Assembly (NCBI RefSeq): GCF_022695595.1
Contig: NZ_CP074380.1
Coordinates: 930,001 to 994,000, forward strand
Reading direction: 5' to 3'
From: Streptomyces sp. MST-110588
GTDB lineage: Bacteria > Actinomycetota > Actinomycetes > Streptomycetales > Streptomycetaceae
Length of the DNA stretch: 64,000 nt
Shown here: one piece after another, positions 3,852 to 20,300 of the stretch
How the letters are laid out: every line of letters starts with the position of its first letter
Numbering within the stretch: the first letter of the stretch is position 1
Notes under the pieces: model-generated
What the model was told of the DNA's origin: nothing
The model's database searches: none
What the model saw: only the letters and a program-made list of their open reading frames with translations
Made by a program: the position numbers and the translations under genes

Positions 3852-5020
3852 ATGCAACTCGGATTCCTCACGCCGGTGTTTCACCGCCCCGGCCCTTGGG
3901 CCAGCGTGTATTTCGGTACGGCTCAGCACACCGAGTCCACACCGGAGATGCGGGCGGTCGAAGCACGTAACGTGAGCCGCTATCTGGCCGCCCAGGGAGC
4001 CGAACAGGCCACCTGCGAGGCGGTCCACGACAAGCTCACATCTCTGGAACACTCCTCGGACCCCGCCGGGCGGGCCTTGTTCGCCTCGGGCGGCGAGGTC
4101 GTCCTGGACACCCCGCTGAGCGCTTCCCCGCCGCGCGGCGTCCAGGTCTCCTGGTCGACGCTGCCGCACGTCAGCCCGCTGGTCGAGCTGACCGGTGACG
4201 ACCCGGTCTGTCTGATCGCCCGCATCGACCGGATGGGCGCGAACTTCTCGCTGCGCGGTGGGCGGGGCACCCGTTCGCTGGGGCAGGTGGACGGCCAGGA
4301 CTGGCCCGTACACCGTACGTCGACCGCCGACTGGTCCGAGCGGCACTTCCAGACCGCGGTGGAGAACACCTGGGAGCACAACGCCGAGGAGATCGCCGGG
4401 GCACTGGCCGAATGCCAGCGGGACTCCGGGGCCGATCTGGTCATCCTGCTCGGCGATCCACGCGAGCGGCGTGCGGTGCACGACCGGCTGCCGCAGCATC
4501 TGCGGGCCGTGACGGTCGAGTCCGACCGCGGCGGCCGGGCCGCCGGGGCGCAGAGCGCCGCCCTGGAGGAGGAGCTGGAAGGTATCCGCACCGCGTTCGC
4601 GCGGCGGCACACCGAGGAGGAACTGCAGCGGTTCCAGGCCGCCCGCGGCCCCGCCGAGGGCCGGGTGGACGCCGTGGAGGGCGTACCGGCGCTGGTGGAG
4701 GCCGCACGCGAGCACCGCATCGCCGAGCTGATCCTCCAGCCCGACGGCGCCGATGTGCACCGTGAGGTGTGGGTGGGCCCCGAGCCGGACCAACTGGCGC
4801 TGCGCCGCTCCGAGAGCCAGTACCTGGGCGCGCCGGATCCGGTGTCCGCCCGCGCCGACGACGCGCTGCTGCGGTCGGCCGTGATGGCCGACTCGGAGGT
4901 GCTGGCCGTCCCCCGGGAGCCGGACACCCCAAGTCGCCGGGTCCGCCGGTCGGCGGTCTGGGCGCGCTGCTGCGCTGGCCCCAGCAGGAAGACGTGGCGG
5001 ACGGGGCACATCTGGCGTGA
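3852..5020 (+). pseudogene. baeRF2/Vms1-like (Rv2629-type) release-factor-fold protein, apparent frameshift near its end
   Basis: The start is ATG 3852, preceded by GGAGGGAG. The first ~360 residues look like the actinobacterial Rv2629 / baeRF2 family, a release-factor-1-like fold related to peptidyl-tRNA hydrolase Vms1 (GGRGTRSLGQ, LVILLGDPRERRAVHD, conserved LEEEL and VEGVPALVEAAREHRI). The reading frame leaves the family pattern at the C-run 4927-4930. One extra C gives PDTPKSPG and then the family-like end VGGLGALLRWPQQEDVADGAHLA with a stop at 5018-5020. Without it the frame runs on meaninglessly through the convergent barstar gene to 5633. The span is one base short of 390 codons. The function is uncertain; Rv2629 homologues are linked to hypoxia and drug tolerance in mycobacteria. 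Confidence 0.72.
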
Positions 5021-13927: not shown

Positions 13928-16060
13928 TCACCCCACATCAGGCGGATCGATCCGCACCCGAACCGGCTCCCCCTCCCTCTTGACCAGCCGGGCCGCACGC
14001 GCCGCCTTGAGCGCCGCGGCCAGGGCCGCGCCCTGCCCCGGCCGTACCCGCACCAACGCGCGCTCCCATGTCTCACCGGGCGGCGGATCACCCGGACGCC
14101 GCGGCCGGCCCGGGTCCACGGGCGGCATCGGTACAGGCCCCAGCACCTGGGCGCCCTCAGGAAGCTCCGCCGCCGCTATCAGCTCCCCGACGTCCTGCGC
14201 CCGGCCGCTCACCGATGCCATCCGCGACACCGGCGGGAACCCCAGCTCGGCCCGCTCCGCCAGTTCCCGTACGGCGTGCCCGACCGGATCCCAGCGGACC
14301 AGCGCCTGCACCGGCCGTACGGTCGCCTCCGCGATCACCGCGACCGTGCCGCCGTCCGCCTGCCCGCGCACCAGCGCTGCGGCGCCCAGCCAGCGCCGCA
14401 GCGCCTCTTCCCCCGCCCGCAGGTCCGGCCGCCCGAGCAGCGCCCAGCCGTCCAGCAGCAGTGCCGCCGCGTAACCGCCCTCCGCCACCGGCTCCGCGCC
14501 CGGCGTGCTCACCACCAGCGCGGGAGTACCCGGCACCGACTCCAGCACATGGTCACGTCCGGACGTCCGCACCGGCACCGCCGGGAACGCCCGCCCCAGC
14601 TCCTCCGCCGTACGCCGCGCGCCCACGATCTGCGCCCGCAGCCGCCGGCCCCCGCACTCCGTACAGTGCCAGGCGCTCTCCTCCCGGCCGCACCAGCCGC
14701 AGACCAGTTCGCCCGCGCCCCGTGCCTCCAGCGGGCCGGCGCAGGCCCGGCAGCGGGCGGGCTCGCGGCAGCGCTCGCACGCCAGCCTCGGTACGTACCC
14801 CCGGCGCGGCACCTGCACCAGCACCGGCCCGCTCTTGAGCCCCTCCCGCACGACCTGCCACGCCAGAGTCGGCAGCCGGGCGGCCCGCGCCGCCGCGTCC
14901 CGCGCCTCGTCGTCGTCCCCGACCGTACGGATCAGCGGCGCCGCGGCCCGTACCCGTTCACGGTCGGCGGCCAGCGGGCGCGCCCATCCGGTCTCGACCA
15001 GTTGCGCCGCCTCGACCGTGCAGCTCAGCCCGCCCAGCAGGAAGCCCGCCCGCTCGGTCACCGACCGCTGGAGCAGCACCTCGCGGGCGTGCGGCTGCGG
15101 GGCGTGCGGATCGCTGTGGCTGGAGTCGCCGTCGTCCCAGATCGCCACCAGCCCCAGGTCCCGTACGGGCGCGAACATCGCCGCCCGCGTCCCTATGACG
15201 GCCCGCACCGAGCCCCGGCTGACCGCCAGCCAGCGCCGGTACCGCTCCTCGGGGCCGGCGTCGGCGGTCAGCAGCACATGCCGGCCGGTGCCGATCAGCC
15301 GCGTCAGCTCCGCATCCACCCGCGCCGCCGCCCGCCCGTCCGGTACGACCAGCAGAGCGCCACGGCCGGACGCCAGCGCCGCGGCCATCGCCCGCGCCAG
15401 CTCGGCAGGCCAGTGCGGCCCCGGCAACGCCGTCCACACAGCCCGCGGCGTCCCCCCACGCGCCAGCGCCTCCAAGAACCCGGGGCCCGCCGCATACCGC
15501 CCCCAACTCCCTTCCTCCGGCGGGGCGTTCGGCGGCAACGGCGCGGGCGACTCCTTCGCCTCCACCCGCGCCCGGCGCGGCGGCACGGCGAGCTGGACGA
15601 CATCGGCGAGCGTGCCGGCGTACCGGTCCGCGACGGCCCGGCACAGCGCGAGCAGCTCCGGCGTGAGCACCCGCTCGGGCGAGAGCACCTGCGCCACCGG
15701 GGCCAGCACCCCGCGGAAGTCGCTCTCGGCGACCCGCTCGACGATGAACCCGCTGACGAGCTTGCCCCCCTCGCGCCGCCCGCCCTTCTCTCCGGCCCCG
15801 AACCGCACCCGCACCCGCACCCCGGGCTGGGCCTGCTCATCCATGGCGGCCGGCACCGCGTAATCAAACAACCGGTCGAGATGCACCAGCCCCTTGTCCA
15901 CCAGCACCCGCGCCACCGGCAGCTCCGCCGCCAGCTCCGCCCCCCGCCACGTACGCGGCCGGGCCCGCGAAGCCTTCACCTCCCGCACCGTCTCCCGAAT
16001 CAGCGCAAGCTGCTCCCCCGGCCGCCCTCCGACCCCCTGCCCCTCATCCGCGCTGCTCAC
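13928..16060 (-). CDS. priA: Primosomal protein N' (actinobacterial PriA, probably helicase-dead)
   Basis: 710 residues from GTG 16060. It has the N-terminal 3'BD region (ARVLVDKGLVHLDRLFDYAVP) and a cysteine-rich zinc-binding insertion between the helicase lobes (C-x2-C-x5-C-x2-C, C-x2-C, C-x2-C, residues ~425-480). In place of a Walker A loop there is ALPGPHWPAELARAM, and the DEAH position reads WDDGDSSHSDPH. The ATPase motifs are therefore degenerate, as known for actinobacterial PriA. It would load the replisome at stalled forks through DNA and protein binding rather than unwinding. The conserved neighbour metK has been separated from it by the 16-23.6 kb block. Confidence 0.92.
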   Translation of the reverse strand: MSSADEGQGVGGRPGEQLALIRETVREVKASRARPRTWRGAELAAELPVARVLVDKGLVHLDRLFDYAVPAAMDEQAQPGVRVRVRFGAGEKGGRREGGKLVSGFIVERVAESDFRGVLAPVAQVLSPERVLTPELLALCRAVADRYAGTLADVVQLAVPPRRARVEAKESPAPLPPNAPPEEGSWGRYAAGPGFLEALARGGTPRAVWTALPGPHWPAELARAMAAALASGRGALLVVPDGRAAARVDAELTRLIGTGRHVLLTADAGPEERYRRWLAVSRGSVRAVIGTRAAMFAPVRDLGLVAIWDDGDSSHSDPHAPQPHAREVLLQRSVTERAGFLLGGLSCTVEAAQLVETGWARPLAADRERVRAAAPLIRTVGDDDEARDAAARAARLPTLAWQVVREGLKSGPVLVQVPRRGYVPRLACERCREPARCRACAGPLEARGAGELVCGWCGREESAWHCTECGGRRLRAQIVGARRTAEELGRAFPAVPVRTSGRDHVLESVPGTPALVVSTPGAEPVAEGGYAAALLLDGWALLGRPDLRAGEEALRRWLGAAALVRGQADGGTVAVIAEATVRPVQALVRWDPVGHAVRELAERAELGFPPVSRMASVSGRAQDVGELIAAAELPEGAQVLGPVPMPPVDPGRPRRPGDPPPGETWERALVRVRPGQGAALAAALKAARAARLVKREGEPVRVRIDPPDVG

Positions 16061-16358
16061 AGCACCAGTCCTACCAGAGCCCACTGACAGCGCCCGTCAC
16101 CAGCCACGATGACCGGATGACCTCCGGCACGGCAAAGCACCGACGAAAGGGGCAGAAAAACTGCGGAAACACCATCTACGGTCCCGCCCCGGGCGCCTGA
16201 GACCGACTGTGCGACATCCCGTGAGTTCCTCTGAGCTCTGCTGACTCCCTGGGCCCCTGGCCAGGGGGTTCTTCCTCCTTCGTGTGCTTTGGTGGCCTGT
16301 GACGTAACTTCGGGATTCTTGAAGCGTTCTCATCTCGTCCGACCGATTCGCAGTCGGG
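16061..16358. other. Left flank of the recombinase cassette, no gene seen
   Basis: About 300 bases between the priA start and the integrase hold a short perfect palindromic stem CCCCTGGCCAGGGG near 16255. An element end or attachment site might lie here, but I could not find a matching copy to the right of the cassette. Confidence 0.35.
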
Positions 16359-16364
16359 TTGAAG

Positions 16365-17459
16365 ATGAGGAGGCTCGGGTTGGCGGCGCTGGCAGTCGTA
16401 CGGGACCTGCGTGAGCACTGGGCGCCCGCGTCGGCTGAGGAGCTGGAGCGGTTCGAGACCGATGTGCTGTCCGGGTTCGTCCTCGCGCGGGCCTCGGCAG
16501 GTCTGGCGGACGGCACGATCCGGGGGGACGTCGGGCACCTGGAGCAGATCAGGACCTGGTTCGGCCGGCCCTTGTGGGACATGGAGCCCGCCGATGCGGA
16601 CGTGTACTTCGGGAAGGTGCTGCGGCACTCGCCCAGCGGTACTCGGCTGGGCCGGTCGCAGGCGCTGAGCACGTACTTCATGTTCTTGGAGCTGCGGCAC
16701 AAGGTCGAGATCCACCGGATGACCGGCCGGGTGGTCGAGTGCCCGATCGACGAGATGAACCGGCCGCGCGGGGCCAAGGACGCCCAGCTGCGGATCCCGC
16801 CGAGTGAGCCGGAGATCGGGACGTTGTTCACCGGCTGGGGCGGCGAGCTGGCCACCTGCCGGAAGTTCGCCCCCACCGCCCGGAACTACACCGCCTCGAA
16901 GCTGATGTCCCAGCTCGGCCTGCGGGTGAGCGAGGCATGCGGGCTCGACCTGGACGACATCAAGTGGGACCTGGGCCGCTTCGGCAAACTCCACGTCCGC
17001 CACGGCAAGGGGGCCCGTGGCTCGGGGCCGCGCGAGCGGATGGTGCCGCTGATCAACGGTGCCGACCGGACACTGCGGTGGTTCATCGAAGACGTGTGGG
17101 GCCAGTTCGACGACGATCACACTCGCCCTGGTGCCCCGCTGTTCCCCTCCGAGCGCAAGAACACCGACGGCTCCGCCCGCCGGGTCGGCGACGACGCCCT
17201 GCGCAACGGGCTCGACAACGCGGTCCAGGCTCATCTGGCGAGTTGAACGGACAGGTTGACACCGCACGTCCTGCGGCATTTCTGCGCGTCCCAACTCTAC
17301 CGAAACGGGCTGGACTTGCTCGCGATCCAGGAGGTCTTAGGACATTCCTGGATCGCTACGACCATGCGGTATATCCACGTGCAGCAGACCCGGGTCGAGG
17401 ACGCCTGGGTCGCCGGGATGGAACGGGCCGCGAAGCGGCTGGAAGGACTGGCCCGATGA
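16365..17459 (+). pseudogene. Tyrosine recombinase/integrase interrupted by an in-frame TGA
   Basis: Starts are ATG 16365 or TTG 16359. Residues ~20-120 form an arm/core-binding domain, and the catalytic domain starts at ~175. Conserved catalytic residues are Arg in LGLRVSEACGL, Lys in HGKGARG, HVLRH, GHSW and the nucleophile in TTMRYIHV. A TGA at 17244-17246 falls between the Lys and the HxxR box, in the same frame on both sides (AHLAS-stop-TDRLTPHVLRH). Trp (TGG) is the natural reading, so this is a nonsense change and not a frameshift. The 295-residue product lacks HxxR, His and Tyr and should be inactive unless read through. The full length would be ~364 aa. Its end overlaps the next gene (ATGA at 17456). 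Confidence 0.88.
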
Positions 17460-17788
17460 GGTGGAACCTGCGGCTGACCGCCGCGAACAAGGGTATCTGG
17501 AAGGCGTCCGAACTCCAGAGGAGCCTGGCCGAGCACGGCCTGGTGATCTCGGCCGGCAAGATGTCCGGGCTGTGGTCCGGGCAGCCGGTCTCGCTCAAGC
17601 TGGAGGACCTGGACGTCATCTGCGTGGTCCTCGGCTGCGAGATCGGAGACCTGCTGATCCCCGAACCGGAGAAGGTCCGCCGCCCTGGCCAGGCAGAGGA
17701 GACCGAACGGGCCGCGGTCGGTGCGGGAACCGCCGCACCGAAGGTGATCCCCAAGCGCCGGGACGGCCGGTCGCTGCCGCCGGAGTGA
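17456..17788 (+). CDS. Cro/C1-type (XRE) helix-turn-helix protein of the recombinase cassette
   Basis: 110 residues. ATG 17456 overlaps the integrase stop, so the two are coupled. Residues ~10-70 (NKGIWKASELQRSLAEHG, SAGKMSGLWSGQPVSLKLEDLDVICVVLGCEIGDLLIPE) match the HTH_26 / Cro type. The C-terminal ~40 residues are charged and disordered. In three-gene recombinase systems a small accessory protein often sets direction or expression; that role is inferred here. Confidence 0.85.
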   Translation: MRWNLRLTAANKGIWKASELQRSLAEHGLVISAGKMSGLWSGQPVSLKLEDLDVICVVLGCEIGDLLIPEPEKVRRPGQAEETERAAVGAGTAAPKVIPKRRDGRSLPPE

Positions 17789-17792
17789 GCCG

Positions 17793-19385
17793 ATGGCACG
17801 GTTCCCGAAGGGCTACGTCAAGCCCACCGACTCCTGCGACAATTGCCTGGCCTGGGGAAACTTCAGCGGCCGCCTCTGCCCCACCTGCTACATGTTCGGC
17901 CGCAGCCACAATGTGGCCGCATGCACCGGCTGCCGCCGCGTCCAGCCGCTGAAGTGGAACTACTGCCGCCTGTGCTGGTGCCAGGCCCGCCTCGGTGCGA
18001 AGGCCGTCGGCGGCCGGCCCACGGACGAGACGGACGTGCGGGACCGGCTCGCCGCCGTCCGGCATCACCAACTGTTCTTCGTCGGGATGCACTACCGCAG
18101 GAAACCGACCCCCGCGGCTCGGACGCGAGGAGGACGGCGGGGAGCCCCGCGCAAGCCGCCTCCTGCACCGGCCTGGCGCCCGGATCCCGGCTGGCGGCAG
18201 CTACCGCTGTTCGCCCAGATTCCCCGTGACTACAGCCGGCTCGCCCTGGCCGACGTTGACCTGGCCAGCCCGTGGCTGGCCTGGGCGAAGTACTTCGCCC
18301 ACCGGCTCGCCGAGGCCCGCGGCTGGGGACGCAACATCCGCTTCGCGGTCAACCGCGGCCTGGCCCTCGTCCTCACCGGCCACGTCGAGGGCGACGTCAT
18401 CCGGCACACGGAGATCTTCGCCCCGCTGCGGGCCCTGGACCTGCCGGTCGGCCACACCGTCACGGTCCTGGACGGGATGGGGATCTTCGAGGACGACAGC
18501 GAACCCTCCTTCGAGCGCTGGCTCGCCCAGAGGCTGGAGGATCTCGCGCCCGGTATCCGCTCGGAGGCCGAGCGCTGGACCCGCGTCCTGCGCGACGGCG
18601 GCCCCCGCAGCCTCCCGCGACGGGAAGGCACGGTCTGGCTCTACCTCAGCCGGGTCCGCCCGGCCCTGCTGGAATGGTCAAGCCCCTACGACCACCTGCG
18701 CGAAGTGACCCGCGACGACGTCCTCACCTACATCAAGACCCTGCACGGCCACCAGCGCCACGACCAACTCGTCGCCCTGCGCTCGCTGTTCACGTGGGCC
18801 AAGCGGAGCGGACTGATCTTCCGCGACCCCACCAGCCGGATCAGGGTCGGGCAATACGAGTACGCCGTGCTGCAACCGCTCGTCCCCGAGCAGGTCGACC
18901 GCTCCGTCGCGGCGGCCACCACCCCGGCGACGCGGCTCATCCTCGCCCTCGCAGCGGTCCACGCCGCCCGGGGCGCCCAGATCGCCACCCTCATGCTCGA
19001 CGACGTCGACCTCGGCAACCGTCGGCTGACCATCGCCGGACGTGTCCGCCCGCTGGACGACCTCACCATGCAGCTGCTGCTGGACTGGCTGGAGCACCGG
19101 CACCGACGATGGCCGAACACCGCGAACCTCCACCTACTGATCAACAACCAGACCGCCAACACCACCAGCCGGGCCAGCAACCACTGGATCAGCGCTGCGA
19201 TGCGCGGGCAGGACGCGACCCTGGAGAGACTCCGCGTCGACCGGCAGCTCGAAGAAGCCCTGGTCAAAGGCCCCGACCCACTCCACCTCGCGGAAGTCTT
19301 CGGACTCGACGAGAAGACCGCGATGCGCTACGCGGAATCCGCACGTGCCCTGCTGGAGCAGGCCGCCGAGCAGCAATCGCCGTGA
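17793..19385 (+). CDS. Zinc-ribbon protein with a degenerate tyrosine-recombinase-like domain
   Basis: 530 residues, starting four bases after the HTH gene. The N-terminus has four Cys pairs: CDNC, CPTC, CTGC and CRLC (residues ~10-65), so two zinc ribbons are likely. Residues ~280-360 (VRPALLEWSSPYDHLREVTRDDVLTYIKTLHG, LRSLFTWAKRSGLIFRDP) resemble a SAM-like core-binding domain. The C-terminal part has AARGAQIATLMLDDVDLGNRRLTIAGR, where the first catalytic Arg should be, but the HxxR box appears as LERLR without His. The end (PLHLAEVFGLDEKTAMRYAESARALLE) looks more like a winged-helix tail than an active-site Tyr. It is probably a DNA-binding partner of the integrase, and mobility-related by context. 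Confidence 0.75.
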   Translation: MARFPKGYVKPTDSCDNCLAWGNFSGRLCPTCYMFGRSHNVAACTGCRRVQPLKWNYCRLCWCQARLGAKAVGGRPTDETDVRDRLAAVRHHQLFFVGMHYRRKPTPAARTRGGRRGAPRKPPPAPAWRPDPGWRQLPLFAQIPRDYSRLALADVDLASPWLAWAKYFAHRLAEARGWGRNIRFAVNRGLALVLTGHVEGDVIRHTEIFAPLRALDLPVGHTVTVLDGMGIFEDDSEPSFERWLAQRLEDLAPGIRSEAERWTRVLRDGGPRSLPRREGTVWLYLSRVRPALLEWSSPYDHLREVTRDDVLTYIKTLHGHQRHDQLVALRSLFTWAKRSGLIFRDPTSRIRVGQYEYAVLQPLVPEQVDRSVAAATTPATRLILALAAVHAARGAQIATLMLDDVDLGNRRLTIAGRVRPLDDLTMQLLLDWLEHRHRRWPNTANLHLLINNQTANTTSRASNHWISAAMRGQDATLERLRVDRQLEEALVKGPDPLHLAEVFGLDEKTAMRYAESARALLEQAAEQQSP

Positions 19386-19427
19386 AACCCGCTCGACCTG
19401 GTCACCTCCTTGAAGAGATCTTTGGGC

Positions 19428-19979
19428 ATGGAGTTTTTCTGCTACCACCGCGACCGGCCCGCCTCCCTGCCACTGCGCTACGAGCTGGGGGAAGAGCATT
19501 GGTCCTACATGGACCAGTACGCGAAGGAGATGATCGCCAGGGGCCCGACTCTCGCCGACGACGGCGACACACCCACCGGCAGCGTGCACATCCTCGACCT
19601 GCCCGATCCCGCTGCTGCCCGCACATTCGCGTTCGACGAGCCGAACTACCAGGCCGGCGTCTACCGGGACGTGCTGCTACGACGGTGGAGCAACATGCTG
19701 GGGCGCACGATGTGGGACTTCCCCGGCGGCCGGACCGGTGGCAACCGGTATCTGGTGATCGGCCTCGGCACGGGACAGGCCGCCGACCTCGAAGTGCCGC
19801 CCGACCGGAATGAACTGATCGCCTACGGACCGCTGCTGTCCGACAACGGCGCCACCTGGCTGGGCACCGCGGCGGTGGTCCGAGCGCCGGACCCGGACAC
19901 GGCACGCGCCATCCTGACCCCGGACCGGTACGCCGACATCGAGGTGCACAACTGGCAGTTCGGCGGGCGACCGTCATAG
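19428..19979 (+). CDS. YciI-family (YCII-related) protein
   Basis: 183 residues from ATG 19428; an in-frame TTG at 19410 is less likely. Two YciI-like halves can be seen. The first has HWSYMDQYAKEMIARGPTLADDGDTPTGSVHILDLPD and the second ELIAYGPLLSDNGATWLGTAAVVRAPDPDTARAIL. The repeated GP-L-x-D-G/N followed by a ferredoxin-like strand is typical of the family. The biochemical role is unknown. It directly follows the recombinase cassette and may be cargo. Confidence 0.78.
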   Translation: MEFFCYHRDRPASLPLRYELGEEHWSYMDQYAKEMIARGPTLADDGDTPTGSVHILDLPDPAAARTFAFDEPNYQAGVYRDVLLRRWSNMLGRTMWDFPGGRTGGNRYLVIGLGTGQAADLEVPPDRNELIAYGPLLSDNGATWLGTAAVVRAPDPDTARAILTPDRYADIEVHNWQFGGRPS

Positions 19980-20044
19980 CCGAGGACCTCCGGCCGACGC
20001 CATCGCCGAAACCCTTCGGATCGCCCAGCAACCTCGTGTTTCCC

Positions 20045-20129
20045 CGAACCCACGGATGCACCGGCCTGACGCACACCGGTGAACCCGTGGGTTCGCGCTG
20101 AAGAACCTTCAGTTTCCGCGAACTCGCGG
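20045..20129. other. Three consecutive perfect hairpins in non-coding DNA
   Basis: Hairpin 1: CGAACCCACGG (20045-20055) pairs with CCGTGGGTTCG (20085-20095), and inside it CACCGG (20059) pairs with CCGGTG (20076), with symmetric 3-nt interruptions. Hairpin 2: CTGAAG-AAC-CTTCAG (20098-20112). Hairpin 3: CCGCG-AACT-CGCGG (20116-20129). No coding frame crosses them convincingly. The array could be an element end, a recombination site or a structured RNA. Confidence 0.7.
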
Positions 20130-20132
20130 GAC

Positions 20133-20300
20133 TCAGCGGGTGTGAGTAGCTGCGGTACAGAAAGTACCGTCGAGATTGACCATGGTTGGCCAGCACACGG
20201 GATGATCTGCACCGCCCGCTACATCGGCCGGTTCCGCGAGGGCCGGTGCGAGGGCGTGGCCGATGCCCTCGGTGGCACCGGTGATCAAGGCGCGGATCGC
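20133..20300 (-). pseudogene. Fragment of a short-chain dehydrogenase/reductase (N-terminal part)
   Basis: On the minus strand the frame reads ALITGATEGIGHALAPALAEP, which is the TGxxxGIG cofactor-binding start of an SDR, but the family pattern is lost after ~25 residues and a stop follows at 20133. It has no clear start codon and overlaps the end of the NTF2-like gene in another frame. It is read as a relic. Confidence 0.5.

Follow-up and report, generated by a model that had tools for sequence, protein, structure and literature searches.

A probable actinobacterial transposon built on a recombinase, helix-turn-helix and zinc-ribbon gene trio, with a candidate target beside Tn3-family transposon ends

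The question raised by the locus studied here is whether three tightly coupled genes of Streptomyces sp. MST-110588, encoding a tyrosine recombinase (A), a small helix-turn-helix (HTH) protein and a large zinc-ribbon protein (B), form a mobile system, and if so, where it ends and what it inserts into. The genes lie in a stretch of 64,000 nucleotides (contig NZ_CP074380.1, positions 930,001 to 994,000), further called the window, and had been proposed, from the letters of this stretch, to be a candidate poorly described mobile cassette. Our analysis suggests, with a probability of about 0.85, that the three genes supply the transposition functions of a transposon that is mostly 3-5 kb long, occurs in Streptomyces and other actinobacteria, and inserts precisely and in one orientation, its right end lying 2-3 bp outside a terminal inverted repeat (TIR) of a Tn3-family transposon. 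As far as sequence comparison can tell, the ends, one insertion without duplication or loss, its orientation, the target at Tn3 ends, the link between the clade of B and the class of target, and a cargo slot can all be recognized. The element exceeds the trio on both sides (16208-20134), and its parts are as follows.

16208..20134, + strand: the whole element, 3927 bp, comprising A, the HTH gene and B, one cargo gene and both ends, as delimited by other copies and an empty/filled plasmid pair
16208..16228, + strand: left end TGTGCGACAT with the motif CCCGTGAGTTC, the subterminal repeat being 16218-16228
16359..17459, + strand: gene A, tyrosine recombinase, starting at TTG 16359 or ATG 16365, with an in-frame TGA at 17244-17246
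17456..17788, + strand: HTH gene, 110 residues, Cro/C1-type helix-turn-helix (PF13443)
17793..19385, + strand: gene B, 530 residues, double zinc ribbon (residues 15-61) and a degenerate tyrosine-recombinase part
19410..19979, + strand: cargo gene, 189 residues, YCII domains (PF03795, 6.6e-25)
20084..20134, + strand: right end, CCCGTGGGTTC (20084-20094) ... GAACTCGCGGG (20120-20130) ACTC, profile match 3.8e-16
20137..20198, + strand, outside the element: putative target, class b TIR and adjoining interior of a truncated Tn3-family transposon
20204..20233, + strand: remnant of Tn3 tnpA, about 10 codons, 90% over 30 bp to the tnpA region of locus L267

The similarity to related loci begins sharply at 16208 (TGTGCGACATCCCGTGAGTTCC) independently of the flank, and the left boundary is equally sharp in 15 other left ends with unrelated flanks. 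The right end has a palindrome-like core, CCCGTGGGTTC...GAACTCRCGGGNNTC, and terminates at 20134. The subterminal repeats are 11 bp long, with outer extensions of 10 bp (left) and 4 bp (right). Among 295 genomes of the genus, the left-end pattern (at most two mismatches) is found in 48 (one hit for the reversed-pattern control), and the right-end pattern at 56 places in 43 (no hits for the control). Copies bounded by both ends span 3.2-4.8 kb in 26 of 38 rows; these rows include L015 (60 bp), which has a false left end, L018, which lacks a left flank, L289 (850 bp), whose ends are poor, and two rows that L159 yields from one left end.

Movement is best seen in two Streptomyces zaomyceticus plasmids, NZ_CP108226.1 (empty) and NZ_CP108190.1 (filled), which differ by a precise 3962-bp insertion with no base duplicated or lost, the flanks being 99.3% identical on one side and 99.9% on the other. 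The empty allele reads ..CCCGTG/CTCGGCCTCGGGG.. (the slash marks the insertion point), and the filled one ..CCCGTG-element-CTCGGCCTCGGGG... Moreover, plasmid NZ_CP108566.1 carries two copies at different places, 99.97% identical over 3798 bp, with different flanks. A fixed chromosomal place was rejected, as the left flanks differ (at most 0.34 bits per position, 33 flanks). Thus the prediction of a mobile system is supported by defined ends, differing left flanks, one pair of alleles and two near-identical copies in one plasmid: both the end sequences and the empty site that it proposed to look for were found, and a family confined to one place without empty sites was not. In the search listings, S. 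zaomyceticus NZ_CP108063.1 and NZ_CP108232.1 look empty and NZ_CP108275.1 looks filled.

The three genes also travel together. In the window they are on one strand, with an ATGA overlap between A and the HTH gene (HTH start 17456, end of the A frame 17459) and a 4-base gap between the HTH gene (end 17788) and B (start 17793), as had been noticed before. The order A-HTH-B is kept in 32 of the 35 copies where the start of B and at least 1.7 kb of upstream sequence are present, so that the alternative outcome, homologues found mostly apart, did not occur. The exceptions are L132, L076, where the HTH match sits slightly further away, and L270.

To the right of most right ends, 2-3 variable bases are followed by a TIR-like repeat of about 38 bases. 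Such a repeat is abutted at 2-3 bp by 70 of 76 distinct right ends, a count that is partly circular, since these same right flanks served to define the repeat classes (threshold at the 99% point of 2000 random stretches). The 76 right ends fall into classes a (24), b (15), c (8), d (6), f (6), f2 (6), e (3), g (2) and none (6), and 55 of them belong to classes a, b, c, d and g, each of which was checked independently. In particular, class a was located 54 times across 38 of 295 genomes, and 10 inverted pairs 1-14 kb apart are among these places (read off the match list). For class b, the type of the window, 12 of 295 genomes yield 14 places in all; in genome G029, an exact pair of these repeats, separated by 7.2 kb, encloses a Tn3 TnpA. 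Class c corresponds to a pair in L029 with TnpA fragments between, and class d is directly followed by a Tn3 transposase (L189, PF01526, 9.1e-132). The element occupies three of 31 fetched class a places and two of 14 class b places, with constant spacing to the TIR (gap 3 in 5/5), and TnpA matches are found in 11 of 54 right-end tails vs. none of 54 heads. In L013, the element occupies the near end of a Tn3 of about 7.5 kb (TnpA PF01526, 2e-124), the far end of which is free. When flanks were set side by side, with the element ends taken from the plasmid pair, the target duplication of Tn3 could be rebuilt across the element as GGATA/GGATA in L029 (the two TIRs then differ by one G) and as GATGG/GATGA in L013 (one mismatch), which implies that the element lies inside the Tn3 target duplication.

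The window copy, too, adjoins a truncated Tn3 end: its right flank (20137..20198) matches at 87% over 62 bp the terminus of a Tn3-type pair in L267 that encloses TnpA (PF01526, 2.4e-133), and matches similar to that of the tnpA remnant at 20204..20233 are also found in L013, L268 and L270. Two neighborhoods of other right ends were observed in addition: in L281 (about 3979-4630), a 650-bp element with class g inverted repeats and no transposase, perhaps a miniature Tn3 derivative, lies alongside a trio right end, and in L190 (11178-11324) a class f repeat beside a trio right end is followed 70 bp on by a class a Tn3 repeat.

The class of the Tn3 end appears to follow the clade of B. At 70% or higher identity between the B fragment and the window B, 36 of 39 typed right ends belong to classes a, b, c and e, while for the other B genes 13 of 14 typed belong to d, f and g (36:3 vs. 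1:13, p 9e-9; 4 of 57 were untyped and dropped). For B matches of at least 200 residues, typed by hand, the ratio is 22:0 vs. 0:11 (one untyped was left out, and a single B is common to L052 and L159). In a tree of 23 B proteins, f/f2 (100/100), d (100/99) and a/b/c (100/100) form separate clades, the single g stands apart, and a, b and c are intermingled in the last of these clades.

Several observations weigh against this reading. Six of the 76 right ends have no recognizable TIR alongside, and 15 carry repeats of classes e, f or f2, which are not verified as Tn3 ends; independent verification extends to a, b, c, d and g, and for g only as the 650-bp inverted-repeat element without transposase. 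Most Tn3 copies next to the element are decayed, and the count of TnpA in 11 of 54 tails contains one repeated entry and one match of 23% identity, with tail lengths varying up to 9 kb. The association of clade and target ignores shared ancestry, its group below 70% identity counts one B gene twice (L052/L159), and neither class a nor class b, considered separately, clusters on the B tree. In B itself, only 3 of 13 distant stretches retain Arg at the position of Arg393. Finally, a single empty/filled pair and two rebuilt duplications were found, one with a mismatch and one needing a 1-bp difference between the Tn3 ends, and movement is read from sequence comparison.

The large protein B was described by the original prediction as having two N-terminal zinc ribbons and no His of the HxxR box, and both points hold. 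Its N-terminus contains two Cys4 zinc ribbons, whose eight Cys are present in almost every aligned stretch, close or distant (the Pfam double-zinc-ribbon match is weak, 0.23), and the alignment places Glu478 where the HxxR His would be and Leu505 in place of the later His/Trp. The recombinase part is recognized at a distance: B matches PF00589 at 1.7e-3 (18.6 bits) and a SAM-like Pfam family at 9.4e-3, both under the cut-off, while a profile of 23 B sequences searched against PDB matches the tyrosine recombinases Gp33 (2.5e-4) and a XerC-like protein (0.027), with Arg393 of B falling on the Arg of GLRV. A comparison of A and B profiles was uninformative (7 sequences used; effective number of sequences, Neff, 1.6), and for GmtY and GmtZ, the names of weak matches, no relevant paper was among the matches listed in the literature search.

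These residues bear on whether B may be an active second recombinase using Tyr513 as nucleophile, an option that we regard as possible while leaning to the opposite. Arg393, Arg481 and Tyr513 are invariant in 23/23 B proteins; in the more extensive alignments, 68 of 70 close stretches and all 15 distant ones retain Tyr513, and 14 of 15 distant ones retain Arg481. Against this stand the loss of both the HxxR His and the later His/Trp, the poor conservation of Arg393 in distant stretches, and the region around Tyr513, which can also be read as an HTH (weak BldC match, 0.2). The earlier view of one catalytic and one structural recombinase thus stays plausible and unproven: it is favored by the missing HxxR His and disfavored by the conservation of Tyr513 and, as far as the accessible text of a 2012 survey (PMC3414803) goes, by the potential catalytic motif credited there to both partners.

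Gene A was thought to encode an intact protein of about 364 residues, which has to be corrected. The in-frame TGA (17244-17246) leaves it 295 codons and falls upstream of the HxxR box and the catalytic Tyr, while the frame past the TGA, including both, is open as far as the HTH overlap. All 18 distinct relatives compared have a sense codon at this position (two extra rows repeat the same copies, and row L020, off register, was dropped). A stop common to the relatives was rejected, the TGA being private to the window copy among those compared. It may be a sequencing error; unless that is so or the stop is read through, the full 364-residue A is absent in the window. As A is interrupted, the window copy is defective: it is probably dead and, lacking a complete A, should be immobile unless helped in trans. 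A matches PF00589 in both halves (2.2e-6 and 8.5e-15), and in its open relatives R188, K216, H302xxR305, H328 and Y337 (L022 numbering) are invariant in 12/12, so that A is likely the catalyst.

The small protein, described earlier as a Cro-type HTH, is indeed matched by the Cro/C1-type family PF13443 HTH_26 (1.7e-10), an NCBIfam search giving no match. Its mean column identity over 10 copies is 82%, and its role in the element, as given below, is one that we infer.

The TIR sequence itself would not be what is recognized if the target were read through a structure formed during Tn3 transposition, with insertion in the 5-bp staggered joint. We consider this improbable: the insertion point inside the 5-bp duplication would suit it, as would the mixing of classes a, b and c, whose outer 20 bp differ much, in one B clade, but the d and f clades occur at other TIR classes, and the S. 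zaomyceticus insertion lies at a TIR with no annotated transposase in the 6 kb downstream of the empty allele. Still less credible is that Tn3 transposons insert beside the trio element or carry it. The two are adjacent, and L190 and L291 share a right flank with differing left flanks; however, the element splits the Tn3 target duplication in L029 and L013, the TIR is already present in the empty allele, and the spacing between element and TIR is constant. Finally, the idea that the conserved stretch belongs to the element, whose true right end would lie about 60 bp further, with no Tn3 target, can practically be set aside: the stretch does follow most right ends and is partly conserved, but it also occurs without the element as inverted pairs, two of them shown to enclose Tn3 transposases; among the 60 matches listed in a plasmid search with the class a joint, 37 cover the repeat alone, starting at query 56-58, and 4 cover the right end alone, stopping at 53, with the remaining ones overlapping the joint or lying elsewhere; and the S. 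zaomyceticus empty allele holds the TIR, which rules out a more distant right end for class a.

In the preferred reading, that of a transposon directed to Tn3 ends, insertion would fall inside the 5-bp target duplication flanking Tn3. The most likely mechanism is that A cuts and joins strands at the subterminal motifs CCCGTGAGTTC / GAACTCACGGG, as the full R, K, HxxR, H, Y set of its open relatives suggests, while B and the HTH protein would bind the element ends and the target. The clade of B, or something linked to it, would decide which class of Tn3 end is recognized. A circular intermediate may be formed, whose junction would read ...GGGNCTC/TGTGCGACATC..., and movement could proceed either by cut-and-paste or by copying.

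The interval between B and the right end serves as a cargo slot. It is 46-62 bp long in 11 of 58 copies and 0.5-2.2 kb in the others, often with one long open reading frame (ORF); the slot of the window (19386-20083) holds other genes or almost nothing elsewhere. Pfam names six of ten tested cargo ORFs (GNAT twice, HEAT, LysR, a dehydrogenase and YCII), the other four having no family, and GNAT cargo is found both with a d-clade B (L188) and with a closer B (L049). Motifs similar to CGAACCCACGGG precede the right end and in some copies also follow B, as if cassettes were swapped there.

B matches (E at most 0.001, fragments and distant relatives included) are found in 44 of 101 genomes of the genus and in 107 plasmid records, of which 84 are from Streptomyces and others from Arthrobacter, Nocardia, Rhodococcus, Pimelobacter, Mycobacterium and other genera. 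A phage origin was rejected, B having no match in 50,697 phage records. In 25 of 45 left-end loci (L140-L184) there is no tblastn match to A, HTH or B; several of these are deletion derivatives with a B tail or a right end, others are orphan left ends, and no clear non-autonomous family was established among them.

Some further observations concern relatives and neighbors. One genome contains two 4205-bp copies of a distant trio (L074 6359-10563 and L075 6447-10651), 99.95% identical, with unrelated flanks; by eye, their right flanks are unlike Tn3 ends. A truncated trio copy is part of a 10.7-kb block that one chromosome contains twice, at 99.95% identity (L072 5504-16209 and L073 3980-14684). 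The genome of the window also has four neighboring same-strand tyrosine-recombinase matches (G000:C1:221942-228054, partly L002-L004), possibly a multi-integrase element. To the left of the element lies a minus-strand ORF of 718 codons (13928-16084), which we take to be priA.

A wider reading can be offered tentatively, at somewhat under even odds: such tyrosine-recombinase transposons may be parasites of transposons, in which foreign Tn3 TIRs are read by B, a zinc-ribbon pseudo-recombinase, together with the HTH adaptor, separately from A; the clade of B would set the Tn3 subgroup, the elements would hitch-hike on plasmids and chromosomes with Tn3, and single cargo genes would be swapped in a fixed slot. 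If so, a listed but uncharacterized pair of actinobacterial recombinases would gain a third gene, ends and a target, and a site-specific recombinase system able to read the termini of transposons from an unrelated family would parallel the solution of the RNA-guided IS1111 elements. Moreover, comparison of the a/b/c, d and f clades could reveal how such systems change their target, and single genes would have a further route for accumulating at Tn3 ends in Streptomyces.

Among known systems, Tn554 has the gene order tnpA-tnpB-tnpC, including TnpC, with cargo downstream. The trio element shares the downstream cargo, whereas its order is A-HTH-B and its small protein is a Cro-type HTH. Tn554 uses one specific att site, unlike the trio element with its unrelated left flanks, and the 6-bp footprint that Tn554 and the elements named SEs carry from the donor to the new right flank was sought in the one empty/filled pair and is absent there. 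RIT elements have three recombinases, each with a catalytic motif, whereas here only A has the full set and the third gene is an HTH.

According to the accessible parts of their descriptions (PMC10214605, PMC5385486), SEs and GInts resemble the trio element in having a left-end operon of recombinases and a small protein, cargo on the right and imperfect inverted-repeat ends, and also in having one recombinase-fold protein without the full catalytic set (Tfp/GinC), like B. They differ in having four core genes (intA-tfp-intB-srap / ginABCD) instead of three, 11 of 58 trio copies having 46-62 bp after B, in the 6-bp footprint left by SEs, and in their hosts.

IS4321 and IS5075, of the IS1111 family, target TIRs of Tn21-family transposons, as the title of a reference in PMC11187229 indicates. 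So far as the sources seen in part go, they share with the trio element a target at Tn3-superfamily TIRs and also subterminal repeats, 11-13 bp long and extended unequally on the outer side (11 bp in the trio element, 10 + 4 bp lying outside). Unlike the trio element, which has tyrosine recombinases and inserts outside the TIR, they use an RNA-guided DEDD transposase; in Pfam, neither the three trio proteins nor the cargo protein match a DEDD transposase.

The closest likeness is to the actinobacterial Famint36/Famint41 pairs. In the literature covered, preprints and most subscription papers lying outside the search, we found no report of the HTH gene, ends or Tn3-end target of the trio, nor of any tyrosine-recombinase transposon with a Tn3-end target. 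The words "poorly described" were fair, since Van Houdt et al. 2012 (PMC3414803) list what is presumably the same pair among actinobacterial Tn554-related elements. In the accessible text, the pair consists of a short recombinase beside an abnormally long one in the same direction, mostly on actinobacterial plasmids, as in the trio; the short partner is significantly similar to Tn554 TnpB, so that for A the likeness to Tn554 goes beyond the size and layout to which it had been limited, while the long partner is less related. The same text reports no obvious TnpC partner, whereas here a conserved HTH gene, annotated today also in Nocardioides pNOCA01 (NC_008697, listed in Table 2), lies between the two; it gives 611-828 residues for the long protein vs. 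530 for B, and for these pairs no ends, target or cargo, all three of which the trio element has. Homologues of all three trio genes are present on plasmid pNOCA01 (A 39% and 57% in two parts, HTH 63% over 77 residues, B 31%), together with a right end that matches the one described here (4e-7). Judging by the record and the layout, these plasmid genes presumably encode the Famint36/41 proteins, and by this similarity the trio family appears to be a relative of the Famint36/41 pairs.

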